DNA of 64,000 bases from assembly GCA_021845665.1 (NCBI GenBank), contig JAJZVO010000002.1, positions 62,001-126,000 of the forward strand, given 5' to 3'. The DNA comes from Bacteroidota bacterium (lineage in GTDB: Bacteria > Bacteroidota > Ignavibacteria > Kryptoniales > JAKASW01). The notes under the pieces were generated by a model. That model made no database searches. It saw only the letters and a list, made by a program, of their open reading frames with translations, and was not told where the DNA came from. This document shows, piece by piece, positions 1-58,078 of this stretch (within the stretch, counting starts at the first letter, position 1; the number at the start of each line of letters is the position of its first letter). The translations under genes and the position numbers were made by a program.

Positions 1-3000
1 CTCGGTACCAATTCAATCGGCTGGGCTTTGATTGAAGACGGAAGGAAAATAATAAGAAGCGGCGTAAGGATTTTTCCCGTCGGAGTTCAGGAAGAAGATC
101 TCCTGAAGAACGGTAAGGAGGTGTCTAAGAATATTGGACGCCGCATGGCACGGGGTGCGCGTCGAAGGCGCTTCCGCTTCAAACTGCGCCGCAAGCAGCT
201 GATACAACTGCTCAAAATGAATCAGATGCTTCCGGAGAACGGCGACTTCCTCAGCACAAAAGAGCTTTATGCTTTAAGGGCGAAGGGGCTTGAAAGCAAG
301 CTGTCACTCGAGGAATTCGGGCGAATCCTGCTCATGCTCAACAAGCGGCGGGGATTCAAGAGCAACCGTAAAAGCGCAGACAATCCTGTAAAGAAGAAAG
401 AGGAAGGAGTTGTAAAGGAAGGGATACTCAAACTGCAGCGGCAAATTGACGCGGAGCAATGCAGAACCGTAGGCGAGTATTTCTATAAGTTGTTCAAGAG
501 AGCGGAGGAAGAACCGGATTGGCCTAGCGAAAGCACGCCCATAGAAAGAATTCGGGGTCGCTTCGTTGGGCGTGAAATGTACGAAAGAGAATTCGAATTG
601 CTCTGGGCTAAACAAAGTAGCTACCATCCGGAAGTTCTGAACGGCGATTTGAAAACTCGGATCGGTGACGAGACCATTTATTACCAAAGACATTTAAAAT
701 CCCAAAAGGGTCTCGTCGGCAAATGCCGCTTTGAACCGAAGAAACGCTGCGCCGCGAGAAGCTCATTTGAATTTCAGGAATATCGTATATGGCAACAGCT
801 CTGGATGGTACGCTTTGCGTCAGGCAACCGTAACGGTGAAGAATTAAGCGCAGAAGAAAAACAAAGAGCCCGCTCCGCGTTAATGAGAACAAGAAAGTTG
901 ACTGAAGCGAAACTGAAAACACTCCTGGGCATACACCGAGATGTCCGTTTGAATGACGTGTTCGATATGAAAGGTAATCGTACCACTGTGGATCTGATCG
1001 AAGCTTTAGGCGAAAAGACCTGCGGCGAGCTTAGCGAAGCACAATTATTTGAATTATGGCACATTCTCTCCTACTGCGACAATACGGACAAACTGAAGGA
1101 CATCGTAAAGAAAAAGATTTCCAACGGATTATTGCCTCAACTAACTGAGGAGCAAGTCGATGCTTACTCCGAGATAAATCTTGAAGAAGGCTTCTGCAAT
1201 CTCTCCAGGAAGGCGCTTAATAAAATACTTCCATTCCTGCGTCAAGGCATGGGATTGGCGGATGCCATTGCAAAAGCCGGATATGACCCCGCCAGGAAGG
1301 TTGTGAAGGGAAGAGATGAGGAGCAAAACAAGATTCCCCCTCTTGGATCGAACGAGCTTCGAAATCCTATAGTTCAACAAATGTTGAGCGAGACTTTTCG
1401 TCTCGTCAATGCCGTGATAAAAGAATACGGTAAACCCGACATGGTACGCATCGAACTAGCACGCGAGCTTAAGAAGCCTAAGGCAAAACGAGAAGAAGCA
1501 AGAACCGGCGCGATACGGAAGCGGGCCCTCAGAGAAGAGTATGCGGAGTTCCTCACCCGGGAACTCGGATACCGCATCGAGCCGAACTCTCCGGAAATAA
1601 GAAAGTACGAGCTCTGGCTGGAGATGGGATGTGAAGACCTGTCGCTGAACGATTTGAAGACCTTCATGAGGAACAACAGAGTCACTGATTCGGTGAAATA
1701 CAAACTCTGGAAGGAGTGTGGTCGAATATCTCCATATTCGGGCAAAGTCATTTCCCTGAGCAGACTCTTCAGTCCCGAGATACAGATCGAACACATTCTA
1801 CCATACAGCCAAACGATGAATAACGAGTTCGGAAACCTATGCTTGTGTGAGGCAGATATCAATAAGCTGAAAGGCAACAGGCTTCCTTACGAGTACTTTG
1901 AGTCGATCGGAAAGCTCGACGAATTCAAAAACAACGTCGCTCAGCTTCAGAATGAAGCAAAGAGAAGACGCTTTCTTGCGAAGGAAATACCGGAAGGTTT
2001 TCTCAATAGCCAGCTCAACAACACAAGCTACGCAGCACGAGATCTGGTATGGCGGCTCTCTTCAGTCTTTCCGCCGGTCAAAAAGGGGGCCATCGAAAGT
2101 CCCAGGGTCCAGGTTGTCAATGGGCAAGCAACTAGCGACCTGAGAAGACTGTGGCAGCTCAACGGCCTTCTCTCGAACGATGTCGACACGAAGAATCGCG
2201 GGGATCACAGGCATCATGCAATCGATGCTTTCGTGATTGCTTGCACCACTCCATCCGTAATGCATACACTTTCTAACTCCAGCAAATTCAATCTGAGGGG
2301 CCAGGTTACCAACGACGAGATCAAAGAGCCGTGGCCAGGTTTCCGGAACGACTGCCAGGATTCCATTAATTCAATCGTCATTTCGTACCGGAACCGGAAG
2401 CGGCTGACGGGAAAGAAACCGAACAATATAATGGCAAAGGATCTATCAAAGCATCCCGATGGAAAGATCCGGCAGAGCACCACCACGATTCGAGGTGCGA
2501 TGCACGAAGAAACAATTTACGGCGAAATCCGGCTGAAGAACGAACGGAAGTTCGTCACCCGGTGGCCCCTTGGTAAGTTTACGGACGAAAGACAACTTGA
2601 GAAAGTAGTCGATCCTAAAGTTAGAGAAATCCTCAAACAACGGGTGGAGAAGTACGGCTCTATAAAAAAGGCGTTCGGGCCTAATGAAGAGGATCCGGTT
2701 CTGATGTATTCCCTCAAAGGGAAGAGAGTACCCATCAATTCCGTCCGAGTGATAAATTCCGGCGAGCATCTGGAAGAGATAAGAGAGGGTGCTTTCGTTG
2801 AGACGGGTAACAACTACGCGATTGCTATTTACAGGGATCCGGAGACGAAAAAGCGGGCTTTCGAGACAGTGTCCTTTTATACTGCGGTTCAGCGTTCGCT
2901 CCGGGGCGAACCGAGCGTGAGGCCCGAGATGAAGGGAAAACCTCTCCTCCTTGTACTCAAACAACACGACACAGTGATCCGTTATGAAAAGCACCCGGAT

Positions 3001-3218
3001 GAAATAGAGTGGGACAACATGGAGTACCTCAGAAGCAGGCTCTTCAGGGTCAGGAAGTTCGACGTGAAGGGGACAATTTTTCTCGATTACCTGTATGCTT
3101 CAAAGCTTGAAAAAAAGGGCGACAGGAATATTCTCTTCTTTCAATTTGTACCGAATACCCTCAATTGCGTGAAGGTCGAGATAGATATCCTTGGCCGCAT
3201 AGTTGGTAAACAGGGTTT

Positions 3219-3222
<4 letters not shown>
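1..3222 (+). CDS. cas9: Cas9 endonuclease, type II-C (5' end outside window)
   Basis: RNA-guided DNA endonuclease that cuts crRNA-matched DNA. The frame is open from base 1, so the start lies upstream; 1073 residues are visible, fitting the compact II-C size. Seen, numbering from codon 1-3: RuvC-I tail GTNSIGWA at 2-9 (the catalytic Asp should be the codon just before the window), an Arg-rich bridge helix near 42-65, RuvC-II VRIELARE with Glu485, an HNH site IEHILPYS with His598 and likely Asn621, and RuvC-III HHAIDA with His739 and Asp742. All nuclease residues that can be seen are intact, so the enzyme looks active. The TGA stop overlaps the cas1 ATG (ATGA), so cas9-cas1-cas2 is one coupled operon. 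No csn2 or cas4 follows, which supports II-C. The partner tracrRNA was not found in the window and may lie upstream. Confidence 0.97.
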
Positions 3223-4597
<1,375 letters not shown>

Positions 4598-50084: not shown

Positions 50085-51470
50085 ATGGCACCATCAATTG
50101 AAAAAGCCGGCACCGCGTTAATTGTGGACGACGATGTGGCCGTTCTAACCGCGTTTGAACTCCTTCTCAAGCCGCATCTGGCGTCCGTCGAGACTGAAAA
50201 GGACCCCCGGAAGATCGAAGCACGGATGAAATCGAAGACTTACGACGTTGTCTTCCTCGACATGAACTATGCTAAGGGAGTGACGACGGGGGAAGAAGGA
50301 TTCCGGTGGTTGAACAAGATCCTGTCGATTGACCCGGCGGCGGTCGTAATTCTTATAACGGCATACGGAGATATAGATACAGCGGTCAGGGCGATCAAGG
50401 AAGGGGCTACCGACTTCGTCGTCAAGCCATGGCAGAATGAGAAGATTCTTGCCACACTGTCATCGGCACTAAAACTCCGGGAATCGAGAGTAGAGTTGGA
50501 AGCGTCTCGGAATAGGGAAAAGCTCCTGAGTGCCGAACTCGATCAACCATTTCTGGATATGGTCGGTAAGTCTCCGTCGATGGTTCGCGTCTTCGAGACA
50601 ATACGGAAGGTGGCTGCCACGGAGGCAAACATACTTCTACTTGGCGAGAACGGGACAGGCAAAGAACTGGTCGCGCGGGCTATACATCGATTTTCCAAGC
50701 GCGCGGCGAATCCTTTCATACCGGTTGACATGGGTGCAGTGAGTGAATCTCTTTTCGAAAGCGAACTCTTCGGGCATGAGAAGGGCTCTTTTACAGGTGC
50801 GACAAATGAGCGTATGGGGAGATTCGAGGTCGCTTCCGGCGGTACGCTCTTCCTCGACGAAATAGCGAACCTTCCTCTATCTTTTCAGGCAAAACTGCTT
50901 GCTGTGGTGGAAAGACGCGAGATCATGCGCGTTGGCTCGGACACCCCTCGTCCGATTGATATACGCCTTATCACCGCCACCAACGCGGCGATCCATGAGA
51001 TGGTGGCTCAAAAGAAATTCAGGGAGGATCTCCTCTACAGGATAAACACGGTGGAGATCAACCTCCCGCCGCTCCGGGAGCGACGGGACGATGTCCCTCT
51101 TCTCGTGGAACACTTCATGAAGATTTACGGAAGGAAGTACCAGAAGCCGGATATCCACGTATCTCCGGATACACTCAGAGTGCTGGGCAACTATCAGTGG
51201 CCGGGTAACGTCCGGGAGCTCCAGCACGTCATCGAGAGGGCCGTCATACTGACCGAGTCGGATTCCATCAGGCCCGAAGGAATATTGCTCTCGTCGTCCG
51301 TTACTTCGCGCGAAGACTCTTCGGGTCCGGAGCATTCACTGTTCCAGGTCGAAAGAAAGCATATCGAGATGGTGATCAAGAAACACGATGGCAGCGTTTC
51401 GGCCGCGGCGAAGGAACTTGGCCTGACAAGGACTGCCTTATACCGCAGAATGAGAAAGTACGGATTGTAA
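50085..51470 (+). CDS. NtrC-family sigma-54 response regulator
   Basis: 461 residues. Receiver domain 1-125 (LIVDDDVA, phospho-acceptor Asp in VVFLDMNYA at 59, FVVKPW), AAA+ domain about 150-390 (Walker A GENGTGKE, loop GSFTGA, Walker B GGTLFLDE), and a Fis-type helix-turn-helix at the end (VSAAAKELGLTRTALYRRM). The loop keeps GSFTGA, a normal working variant, unlike the activator at 45710. It is followed after 17 bases by its likely partner kinase. Divergent placement from the ABC operon suggests that it drives that operon from a sigma-54 promoter. Confidence 0.95.
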   Translation: MAPSIEKAGTALIVDDDVAVLTAFELLLKPHLASVETEKDPRKIEARMKSKTYDVVFLDMNYAKGVTTGEEGFRWLNKILSIDPAAVVILITAYGDIDTAVRAIKEGATDFVVKPWQNEKILATLSSALKLRESRVELEASRNREKLLSAELDQPFLDMVGKSPSMVRVFETIRKVAATEANILLLGENGTGKELVARAIHRFSKRAANPFIPVDMGAVSESLFESELFGHEKGSFTGATNERMGRFEVASGGTLFLDEIANLPLSFQAKLLAVVERREIMRVGSDTPRPIDIRLITATNAAIHEMVAQKKFREDLLYRINTVEINLPPLRERRDDVPLLVEHFMKIYGRKYQKPDIHVSPDTLRVLGNYQWPGNVRELQHVIERAVILTESDSIRPEGILLSSSVTSREDSSGPEHSLFQVERKHIEMVIKKHDGSVSAAAKELGLTRTALYRRMRKYGL

Positions 51471-51487
51471 CACTGAAGAGCTATCTC

Positions 51488-52843
51488 ATGCATCTTGACC
51501 GTTTCCGAATGGCGACGGTGCTTCGTGTGCTCCTTCTGACCTGTACTTTGTGTCTCTTTGCGTACTTTCTTTTCCGCACCGACTTGTACAGGATCGCAGC
51601 ACTGATGGGAGTGCTTGCGGCCTATCAGGTTTTTGCGCTTGCAAGGTGGATCGAAAGGAAAAATCGAAACATGGCGAGGTTCCTTGAGGCGATAGAAGCG
51701 GAAGATTTCACCCAGACGTTCAGTCTAGCGGGGCGAAGCAAAGCGTTCGACGAACTGAACAGGACCTTCAATAAAATAACCCAGAGATTTGAGGAGATGA
51801 GGTCCGAGAGGGAAGACCAATTCCAGTACTTCCAGTTCGTTGTCGAGCGCCTGAGTGTCGGACTCATCGTGTTCCGGCATGACGGCAAGGTCGACGTAAT
51901 CAACCGGGCCGCCAAGCGACTCATCGGTATGCCTTCGTTGAGAAACATAAATGAGCTGGGAGCGCTTAGTCCTGACCTCCTGGACGCTGTCCGGGATGCT
52001 AACCGCAGAGGAAGAAATCTCGTCCGTGTGGAGAACGACAATCTCTCCGTGCGTCTGGCTATTTTGACGTCCGAATTCAGAATGAGGGGGATCAGTTATA
52101 CTCTCGCTTCACTTCAGGACCTCAGGGGTGAAATGGAGGAAATCGAGCTCGACGCGTGGCAGAATCTCATACGGGTCCTTACTCACGAAATCGTCAATTC
52201 AATCGCGCCGATTGCGTCGCTCGCCTCCACGGCGAACAAGCTTCTAACCGATTCCGGCACGCAATCAAGTGAGCAAGGTGAATCTGTCCCGCAGGTTTTC
52301 GGCGACATCCAGACCGCGGTGAGGACGATCGAGACTAGAAGCGAGGGGCTGCTGCGGTTTGTGAATTCGTACAGGACGCTCACACACGTGCCAGAACCTA
52401 AGTTTAGGATTTTCCCGATCATTACACTTTTCAAAAGAGTCGAACAGCTTGTGGGATCGTCCCTGAGCAAGAGCAGCATAAAACTCACCATCGCTGTCGA
52501 TCCCGAGTCGCTGGAGTTGACGGCGGATCCGGACCTGCTGGAGCAGGTGCTCCTCAATCTTGTGATGAATTCGATACAGGCGCTCGAAGGAAAGACGGAC
52601 GGTGAAATTGAGCTGTCGGCTCATCTTGAAGAGCGAGGAAAAATAGCAATCAGAGTCGAGGACAACGGTGCCGGCATCCCCAGGGAAGTCCAGGAGAAGA
52701 TCTTCATCCCCTTCTTCACCACGAAGGACAGTGGGTCGGGAATAGGGCTTAGCCTGTCCCGTCAAATACTCCACCTCCATCGCGCTTTGATAAGCGTTTG
52801 GTCCAAACCCGGGGAACGTACCGTTTTCACAATTGTTTTCTGA
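51488..52843 (+). CDS. Membrane sensor histidine kinase, partner of the NtrC-type regulator
   Basis: 451 residues. Two N-terminal helices with almost no periplasmic loop (VLRVLLLTCTLCLFAYFLF and YRIAALMGVLAAYQVFALA), a PAS-like domain near 115-215 (VVERLSVGLIVFRHDGKVDVIN), a phospho-acceptor His in NLIRVLTHEIVNSIAPIASL, and an HATPase domain (NLVMNSIQALEG, VEDNGAGIP, TTKDSGSGIGLSLSRQI). The tiny loop suggests sensing within the membrane or cytosol, which would fit monitoring of an ABC permease in the same membrane. Co-transcribed with the regulator. Confidence 0.94.
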   Translation: MHLDRFRMATVLRVLLLTCTLCLFAYFLFRTDLYRIAALMGVLAAYQVFALARWIERKNRNMARFLEAIEAEDFTQTFSLAGRSKAFDELNRTFNKITQRFEEMRSEREDQFQYFQFVVERLSVGLIVFRHDGKVDVINRAAKRLIGMPSLRNINELGALSPDLLDAVRDANRRGRNLVRVENDNLSVRLAILTSEFRMRGISYTLASLQDLRGEMEEIELDAWQNLIRVLTHEIVNSIAPIASLASTANKLLTDSGTQSSEQGESVPQVFGDIQTAVRTIETRSEGLLRFVNSYRTLTHVPEPKFRIFPIITLFKRVEQLVGSSLSKSSIKLTIAVDPESLELTADPDLLEQVLLNLVMNSIQALEGKTDGEIELSAHLEERGKIAIRVEDNGAGIPREVQEKIFIPFFTTKDSGSGIGLSLSRQILHLHRALISVWSKPGERTVFTIVF

Positions 52844-55566: not shown

Positions 55567-57177
55567 TTAACAGCCCCCCTGGATTTTCCTTTTGACGACC
55601 GTCTCAACCGGTTTGTTCTTCGCGTCCGCAATCATTTTAAGAATTGCAGTCCGAGCGCCTTCGCGGAATTCCTTGACGTCAGCATCCCAGCGTGAGCCCG
55701 TCGGAACAAAAAGAGTCGAGTCGAGTATAGTCTTCTTGAACGTGCCGATCCCTCCACGGAGGATTGCGACATTTTCATAGCCGAGTTCGTGAAGCAGGTA
55801 GTACGCCGTGCGCTCCTGAGTCTCGTCGTCACCGACTACAACTTTCCTGAGATGTCTTTGTGAGAAAGTGGAAACCCAATCTTTCCCGAACAAACCGGTT
55901 CTCTGAACGTTGTACGAGTTCAGAAGGGCGAGTGCAGCGTATTCTTTCGGCGCGCGGATGTCAATTATCCGGATGTTCAGCTCGTGATCGACGATACGGA
56001 AAGCGAGTTCATCCGCGTCCATTTTGTCGACCGGATGGACGGCAGCGTACGACGGGGCGGTCACCTTCTCTATCAGGCTCGTCTTGTGGTCGGGCATGAA
56101 AATGAAGATGACGCCGAGTGCGACGGCGAATGTTCCTGCCGCTACGTGCTTCAGCGGCCTGAATTGAAGCGAGGGAGCCGACTTCTCGTCCACGCGCCTT
56201 TCTATCAATGTTGTGATCGCGAAGGCGGCGACGGCCACTGCGACTAGAATGAAAGCGAATACGCCCTGCGGCATACCGAGCGAATCGAAGACCTTGATCG
56301 GGCCGAGAGCCGTTGATGTGTAGAAGTTCTCGTACAGCGGAAATAGCTCGCCGAAAGTAAAAACGCCGATGAGTCCTCCGCCGACGAAGAACATCGCGTC
56401 AACTTTTCCGATTGCCGCGGCGCAGACGCTTGTACCTGGGCAGTAGCCACCGATGATGAAACCGATTCCCATGATGACTCCGCCGACGATTGCGGGAACA
56501 AGCCAGGTTGGGTTAATATAGATGACATCGACGTCGCGCGCCGGGTTGAAGAGAGCCTCTTCGAGGTCGCCGTGCTTCACGTTATTCCCGCCTCCTCCGA
56601 AGAAGTGACAGGTCCCGCAGTCAGTGCGTGTGGGGAGTCCGACGTGCTGTGCGACATAGCTGAGGTTGACGGACGTGTCGGGCATGCCGGCACCTTCGTT
56701 CATTTTTGCGTAGGTGCCGCTGTTATCATGGCACGCGAGGCAATCGACGTCGAGCGAGTCGGCAAAGTAAGCCTTGTCGTTCGCGTAACCGTAACCGGCG
56801 TGACAGCGCGTACAGCTCTGTTCGTTGCTTTGAACGCCTATACAGAAATTGTTGAGTATGTTCCTTTTGCCGACGCTGCGGATTCCTTTTCCTGCGATAT
56901 ACTCCGTCCTTTCCCACTGCCAGTGGGATGAATGCATCACTTCTTCCGCGCGGCCGTTATGACACGAGATACATGCCGCGGTGACATCCTGGGGATGATT
57001 GAATTTCTTTCTGAGTTCGGAAAACAACGAATGGTCGACTGACGGCTTCGTCTTCGTCGCGTACTGTTCCTTCAGCTTCGTAAGTGGAGGAGTGTCTGAG
57101 CTGTTCTTGTGAAGTGGTGTGAGGATCAAAGCGACGAAGGTTCCCAGAACCAGGAGAGTGAGAGAGAGTCTTTTCAT
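55567..57177 (-). CDS. Chimeric protein: truncated octaheme cytochrome + YeeE/YedE half + rhodanese-like domain
   Basis: 536 residues in three blocks. 1-217: a signal anchor and the N-terminal part of the octaheme tetrathionate reductase-type cytochrome family, with heme motifs CISCH (69), CTRCH (122), CLACH (146) and CGTCH (187) and the family block NNFCIGVQSNEQSCTRCHAGYG. 218-330: joined at DVDVIYINPTW, the second half of a YeeE/YedE thiosulfate-type transporter with GGYCPGTSVCAA. 395-536: a rhodanese-like fold (IRIIDIRAPKEYAA) where the catalytic-Cys loop reads VVVGDDETQ, so sulfur transfer by that Cys is lost; the chain ends GGC. The cytochrome lacks its last four hemes and the transporter its first half. 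It looks like an in-frame deletion between two adjacent genes. Start ATG 57177 has AGGAAG upstream; the frame opens earlier inside merR. Confidence 0.85.
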   Translation of the reverse strand: MKRLSLTLLVLGTFVALILTPLHKNSSDTPPLTKLKEQYATKTKPSVDHSLFSELRKKFNHPQDVTAACISCHNGRAEEVMHSSHWQWERTEYIAGKGIRSVGKRNILNNFCIGVQSNEQSCTRCHAGYGYANDKAYFADSLDVDCLACHDNSGTYAKMNEGAGMPDTSVNLSYVAQHVGLPTRTDCGTCHFFGGGGNNVKHGDLEEALFNPARDVDVIYINPTWLVPAIVGGVIMGIGFIIGGYCPGTSVCAAAIGKVDAMFFVGGGLIGVFTFGELFPLYENFYTSTALGPIKVFDSLGMPQGVFAFILVAVAVAAFAITTLIERRVDEKSAPSLQFRPLKHVAAGTFAVALGVIFIFMPDHKTSLIEKVTAPSYAAVHPVDKMDADELAFRIVDHELNIRIIDIRAPKEYAALALLNSYNVQRTGLFGKDWVSTFSQRHLRKVVVGDDETQERTAYYLLHELGYENVAILRGGIGTFKKTILDSTLFVPTGSRWDADVKEFREGARTAILKMIADAKNKPVETVVKRKIQGGC

Positions 57178-57203: not shown

Positions 57204-57650
57204 TTACGGTAGTGGTAAGATGTCCTTGTAAATCAGAGACTTGATGCTTTCGCAGGTGCCGGAAAGCTGGTACACCTTGCAGTCTTCGCACTCGAGCCCT
57301 GCGCATTGGTTATTGTTGTGTTTGTATGTCCAGCACCCGCCGCTTGATCTCAGGAATGCGGGACACTCCTTTCTCTGATTTTCCGGACATTGAATGTGAG
57401 ACCAGCATGGCACGAGCGATTGCATTCGCAGTATACCTTCTATCGAGATTTTGTGGTCGTTGATCGCGCTGCGTATGCACTTCAGCCGCTCAATGTCTAT
57501 GTCGGAAAAGACCCTGCGGCCTTTTTCGGACTTTGAAATAATTATGAGTCCCAGCCGATCGTAAAGCCGGATCGTCTCGACCGAGATTCCAAGTGCGCCC
57601 GCAACTTCTCCGATGGAGTAGATTGGTGTAGCCTCGACTCGTTTTTCCAT
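57204..57650 (-). CDS. MerR-family regulator with Cys-rich C-terminal tail
   Basis: 148 residues from ATG 57650 (the frame runs 34 codons further up without family sequence). N-terminal MerR winged helix (YSIGEVAGALGISVETIRLYDRLGL) and a short dimer helix. From residue 82 a Cys-rich tail has eight Cys (82, 88, 96, 106, 116, 121, 124, 133), including CPA and CW words in the order CW-C-CPA-CW-C-C-C seen in sensory proteins with a presumed metal or Fe-S site. It lies 26 bases upstream of the cytochrome/YeeE/rhodanese chimera on the same strand and probably controls it in response to a redox or sulfur signal. Confidence 0.88.
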   Translation of the reverse strand: MEKRVEATPIYSIGEVAGALGISVETIRLYDRLGLIIISKSEKGRRVFSDIDIERLKCIRSAINDHKISIEGILRMQSLVPCWSHIQCPENQRKECPAFLRSSGGCWTYKHNNNQCAGLECEDCKVYQLSGTCESIKSLIYKDILPLP

Positions 57651-58078
57651 GCCTGTATTTATAAACACAAGCGCTGTGCCCGAATTTGTGCGATTTCCCG
57701 CCTCTTTGGAGGGAGCCTGGTGGTATAATGTCCCAACTTCGGAAGCCTTCAAAGGTGGCTTGCCGCAATCTACACAGGGCTACCAACCCCCTTTTCCTGA
57801 GTTTTGAATTCACGGGAGAAATGAACCTCCTGAAATCGGATGCCTGCGATTAAGTCAAGGAATATGATAGCTATGTCTTACCTGATTGATTCAGAGCTTC
57901 CCTCCTTGGAAAAGAGATGTAACGAAAACGGGATTATTTCCACCTGGCCAAGCTTTTCTGTTCGATTTTCGCCGTAAGGATTCAGGTCCTCAAACGACAG
58001 ATTATGTGAAGGCCGCCGAATCACCCGGGGCCGGAACTTTAGTCGATATTCTCAGTTTACAAATAGATAGGAGTGACT
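57651..58078. other. Divergent intergenic region between merR and dipZ-like genes
   Basis: About 430 bases with no supported gene. It must hold both promoters. I could not identify a MerR-type dyad with the usual 19-20-base promoter spacer with confidence. Confidence 0.45.

Follow-up and report, generated by a model that had tools for sequence, protein, structure and literature searches.

A probable recent deletion in a conserved sulfur-respiration operon joins an octaheme cytochrome gene to a YeeE/YedE-rhodanese gene in a Bacteroidota genome

Introduction

The closest described counterparts of the open reading frame (ORF) analyzed here are cytochromes c of the octaheme tetrathionate reductase (OTR) type, represented by the family model TIGR04315 and by the Shewanella oneidensis structure 1SP3, together with the YeeE/YedE transporters and the rhodanese domain (PF00581). 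The activity expected of OTR is the reduction of tetrathionate, nitrite or hydroxylamine, and Lys153 of 1SP3 is reportedly the lysine ligand of the active-site heme (Mowat 2004). The YeeE/YedE family includes the full-length transporter TsuA, in which Cys91 and Cys293 are indispensable, and a two-gene half-size form consisting of PmpA and PmpB (PMC11582611).

We analyzed a window of 64,000 nucleotides in which parts of these families are found in a single ORF. The window comes from a single assembly, apparently a metagenome-assembled genome (MAG) of 135 contigs with 3.1% contamination, which forms the whole evidence base for the fused ORF.

Results

The fused ORF (55567-57177, minus strand) is stop-free over 536 aa and encodes OTR hemes 1-4, then the later portion of a half-size YeeE/YedE protein with a rhodanese domain, with Pfam matches to Cytochrom_c3_2 (residues 118-191), Sulf_transp (223-358) and Rhodanese (399-481). 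Its first part (56525..57177, minus strand; residues 1 to ~218) was assigned to the 5' part of an OTR-type cytochrome c gene from TIGR04315, the CXXCH motifs and the identity to the sister genome, and encodes an N-terminal hydrophobic segment (signal or anchor) followed by hemes 1-4. Residues 47-218 match positions 1-179 of the 440 of TIGR04315, and residues 1-218 are 92% identical to the intact 522-aa gene of sister genome G012. Compared with OTR, the fusion has four of eight hemes (CXXCH at residues 69, 122, 146 and 187; hemes 5-8 are gone), lacks the C-terminal Cytochrome_cB domain and scores 224 bits against a full-model cut-off of 375, whereas the protein of the nearest relative, locus L032, reaches 593 bits. 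The motif VKHGDL is common to the fusion and 1SP3, with the lysine at chain position 153.

The second part (55567..56535, minus strand) comes from the 3' portion of a half-size, PmpB-like YeeE/YedE gene whose product carries a C-terminal rhodanese-like domain and a terminal Gly-Gly-Cys; it is 89% identical to L032 4776-5969. It covers the C-terminal 80% of a half-size protein of 397 aa, retains the GGYCPGT cysteine motif and scores above the Pfam gathering thresholds for both Sulf_transp (PF04143; 37.4 vs 27 bits) and Rhodanese (35.6 vs 22.2 bits). The initial annotation, made from the letters alone, had taken the transporter part for the second half of a YeeE/YedE protein and the first half as missing; the match in fact covers positions 52-192 of the 310 of the Sulf_transp profile and is thus a homologue of the N-terminal half. 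What is missing from the PmpB-like protein is its first ~76 aa, with two predicted transmembrane (TM) helices, and what is lost whole is the PmpA-like half, which matches the C-terminal half of the profile. A YeeE/YedE transporter with both halves is therefore not found here, the PmpA-like half (RGCTSG) being absent from the whole assembly and present in seven congeners. The same annotation had correctly recognized a start from an octaheme cytochrome that switches in frame to another protein (at about residues 214-219), the loss of four hemes and the rhodanese-like domain at the end.

Unlike typical members of PF00581, the rhodanese-like domain has an active-site loop (VVVGDDETQERT) that is free of the usual cysteine, both in the window and in eight relatives; instead, the protein ends in a Gly-Gly-Cys that is invariant between the window (55567-55580, minus strand) and loci L031-L039. 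The terminal Cys may serve as the sulfur carrier.

Immediately upstream and on the same strand lies a MerR-family regulator with a cysteine-rich C-terminus (57204..57752, minus strand; Pfam MerR_1, 57 bits; ortholog L032 1503-1949), whose ortholog precedes the intact operon directly. This gene is conserved in relatives and evolves faster than the operon genes (dN/dS about 0.2).

In seven of the 12 other genomes of the genus, OTR and YeeE-rhodanese are separate full-length ORFs (about 520-590 aa and about 400-450 aa, respectively) whose starts lie roughly 3 kb apart, with a cytochrome b561-type gene and a PmpA-like YeeE half between them. The initial annotation had proposed looking for intact parental genes in sister species, and they were found, with extra DNA between them. 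The gene order in L032 (MAS4.bin38) is MerR, OTR (1976-3544, 522 aa; matching the whole TIGR04315 model, and 1SP3 over 414 residues), cytochrome b (230 aa, PF01292), YeeE half 1 (PmpA-like, 177 aa, C-terminal half of Sulf_transp) and YeeE half 2 with rhodanese (PmpB-like, 397 aa, N-terminal half of Sulf_transp). From OTR onwards this order is identical in all nine loci L031-L039, which come from MAGs of Bacteroidota, KSB1 and Acidobacteriota and carry the operon at about 1.9-6.0 kb. Eight CXXCH motifs are present in the OTR of L031 and L033-L039 and seven in that of L032, where CISCY replaces the first, through either a real loss or a base error (contig at about 4.7x coverage).

Like the two-gene PmpA/PmpB form, the intact operon encodes a C-terminal-half protein (with the RGCTSG cysteine) and an N-terminal-half protein (with the GGYCPGT cysteine), cysteines that, by profile coordinates, are the putative counterparts of TsuA Cys293 and Cys91, respectively. 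Of this pair, the window has only the PmpB-like gene, without its first two helices. The operon's PmpB-like protein differs from PmpB in having an extra TM helix and the rhodanese-like domain (about 400 vs about 130 aa). Structure prediction for the intact PmpB-rhodanese protein gave a mean pLDDT of 57.7, with low confidence in the membrane part and values mostly >80 in the rhodanese part. In the open-access literature that we searched for an OTR/YeeE/rhodanese operon as a unit, the components are mentioned separately and the arrangement is undescribed.

A blastn comparison of the window with L032 showed collinearity on either side of the join, at 86.4% and 85.5% identity, with an offset that shifts by 2,383 bp (a figure relative to this nearest relative) at 56525-56535. 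In the alignments to L031-L039, the blocks on either side have 11 bp in common at the junction (56525..56535, minus strand; GACGTCGATGT). From the relatives we infer matching stretches of about GACgTCGATGt in the first gene and GACaTCGATGtc in the last, with a microhomology of about 7 bp (TCGATGT) that is exact within 11 bp containing one mismatch; the relatives narrow the breakpoint down to these roughly 7 bp, which occur in both parents. Four genes are affected, two truncated and two completely lost: the missing DNA comprises OTR hemes 5-8 and the rest of OTR, the entire cytochrome b, the entire YeeE half 1 and the first ~76 residues of YeeE half 2. The earlier suggestion of an in-frame deletion fusing two neighboring genes thus holds as to the in-frame deletion but not as to the neighbors, as two whole genes separate the parents in relatives.

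Neither the missing DNA nor its proteins were found elsewhere in the assembly (G000, 95.6% complete), where no leftover fragment occurs on other contigs, while the same protein queries (cytochrome b and PmpA-like half) match in seven congeners. We accordingly rejected an intact copy of the operon elsewhere in the genome. A second, distant multiheme cytochrome is encoded on contig C75 of the assembly (51089-51583, L043; 33% identity to OTR residues 136-302, in an open frame of 526 aa).

The join could also be an assembly artefact, as the initial annotation had allowed, or a minority strain variant: the operon would then be intact in the population, the short version having been made by a chimeric read pair, a strain mixture or the resolution of a bubble in the metagenome assembly. 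We consider this unlikely, if well worth weighing. The draft state of the assembly, in 135 contigs, speaks for it, but the window contains no N and no long repeat at the join, and the shared sequence there is only about 7-11 bp, far shorter than the overlaps used by k-mer assemblers; moreover, no remnant of the 2.4 kb is found on any other contig. On either side of the join, the window follows one and the same relative at equal identity, which argues against the joining of two organisms. We rejected an interspecies chimera for this reason, the nearest relative being unchanged across the join.

We found no other fused match covering both parts in two overlapping sets, of 100 relatives and of 395 genomes of the phylum, which together amount to about 475 genomes. 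The same junction, for which the initial annotation had suggested searching related genomes, is thus absent from them. A candidate recurrent fusion in G306 was rejected, as both matches lie in 533-aa open frames but about 2.7 kb apart and belong to separate genes. That the fusion is unique to one genome is compatible with an artefact, and it also weighs against a retained new protein.

The dN/dS against the sister species was 0.076 for the cytochrome part and 0.073 for the YeeE-rhodanese part. Amino-acid changes on the window and sister branches numbered 6 vs 5 in the former (6 unpolarised) and 11 vs 8 in the latter (14 unpolarised), summing to 17 vs 13 (20 unpolarised). Both kept parts are therefore under purifying selection like intact orthologs, with no extra changes on the window branch, and pseudogene decay was rejected, the ORF being stop-free and showing no surplus of changes. 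A fusion free of constraint could account for about 5% of the branch at most (11% when changes are assigned as leniently as possible), so the selection seen on the kept parts reflects the intact operon and not the fusion. Because the parts evolve like intact orthologs without extra changes, the join is either very recent or a strain or assembly variant; an intact locus that had been misassembled would likewise show an open ORF with the dN/dS of intact orthologs.

Discussion

We consider it probable that a recent deletion of ~2.38 kb in a conserved sulfur-respiration operon left this ORF as its scar, with function likely lost. As a matter of judgement and not of computation, we hold a real deletion to be roughly three to four times as likely as an artefact or minority variant. 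In its intact form, the operon encodes an OTR-type octaheme cytochrome c, a membrane subunit of the cytochrome b561 type, a PmpA-like half and a PmpB-like half with a rhodanese-like domain, and two short matching stretches in its first and last genes were probably joined by a microhomology- or slippage-mediated deletion. The join would have fallen in frame by luck (a chance of 1 in 3), giving a single ORF of 536 aa; since one deletion in three is in frame, an in-frame join needs no selection. From OTR, the predicted product has lost the C-terminal hemes and the Cytochrome_cB domain, and from the PmpB half two TM helices; the cytochrome b and the PmpA-like half are gone altogether, the latter with the cysteine apparently corresponding to the essential Cys293 of TsuA. 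As pieces needed for both parental functions are missing, loss of function is the likeliest state, and the fusion product most likely can neither reduce tetrathionate or nitrite nor transport sulfur, to judge from its domain content. Frame and probably topology are nevertheless preserved, with the join in a loop that is probably periplasmic by positive-inside reasoning, and this leaves a small chance of some residual partial function.

The initial annotation had also raised the prospect of a new redox-sulfur protein. Such a protein would be an expressed and retained membrane-anchored tetraheme cytochrome tethered to a sulfur-handling membrane and rhodanese module, and it would exchange electrons with persulfide species. 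The ORF is indeed open, in frame and downstream of its regulator, the lysine aligned with residue 153 of 1SP3 is kept, and the join between predicted helices would keep the cytochrome part on its own side of the membrane. However, the fusion occurs in only one of about 475 genomes, the substitution pattern on the window branch is unchanged and gives no sign of adaptation in the parts, the fusion has lost the cytochrome b, the C-terminal half of OTR and, along with a cysteine of the essential type, the PmpA half, and the usual loop of the rhodanese-like domain is free of cysteine, as it is in intact relatives. We therefore regard a functional chimera as highly improbable, and the proposal found no support.

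The fusion is thus most likely an ordinary, very recent deletion scar in a separately conserved operon and not a new redox-sulfur protein. The chimera itself carries little weight, being most likely a relic of an operon, dead or dying, and it cautions against reading a domain fusion seen in a single genome as a new enzyme. The intact operon is more useful. In several phyla it unites the genes of an octaheme OTR-type cytochrome, of a cytochrome b and of a split YeeE transporter whose rhodanese-like domain is followed by an invariant terminal Gly-Gly-Cys. That these genes are kept together across phyla suggests that OTR in these operons acts alongside a sulfur-anion transporter, so that its substrates would include sulfur compounds and not just nitrite.
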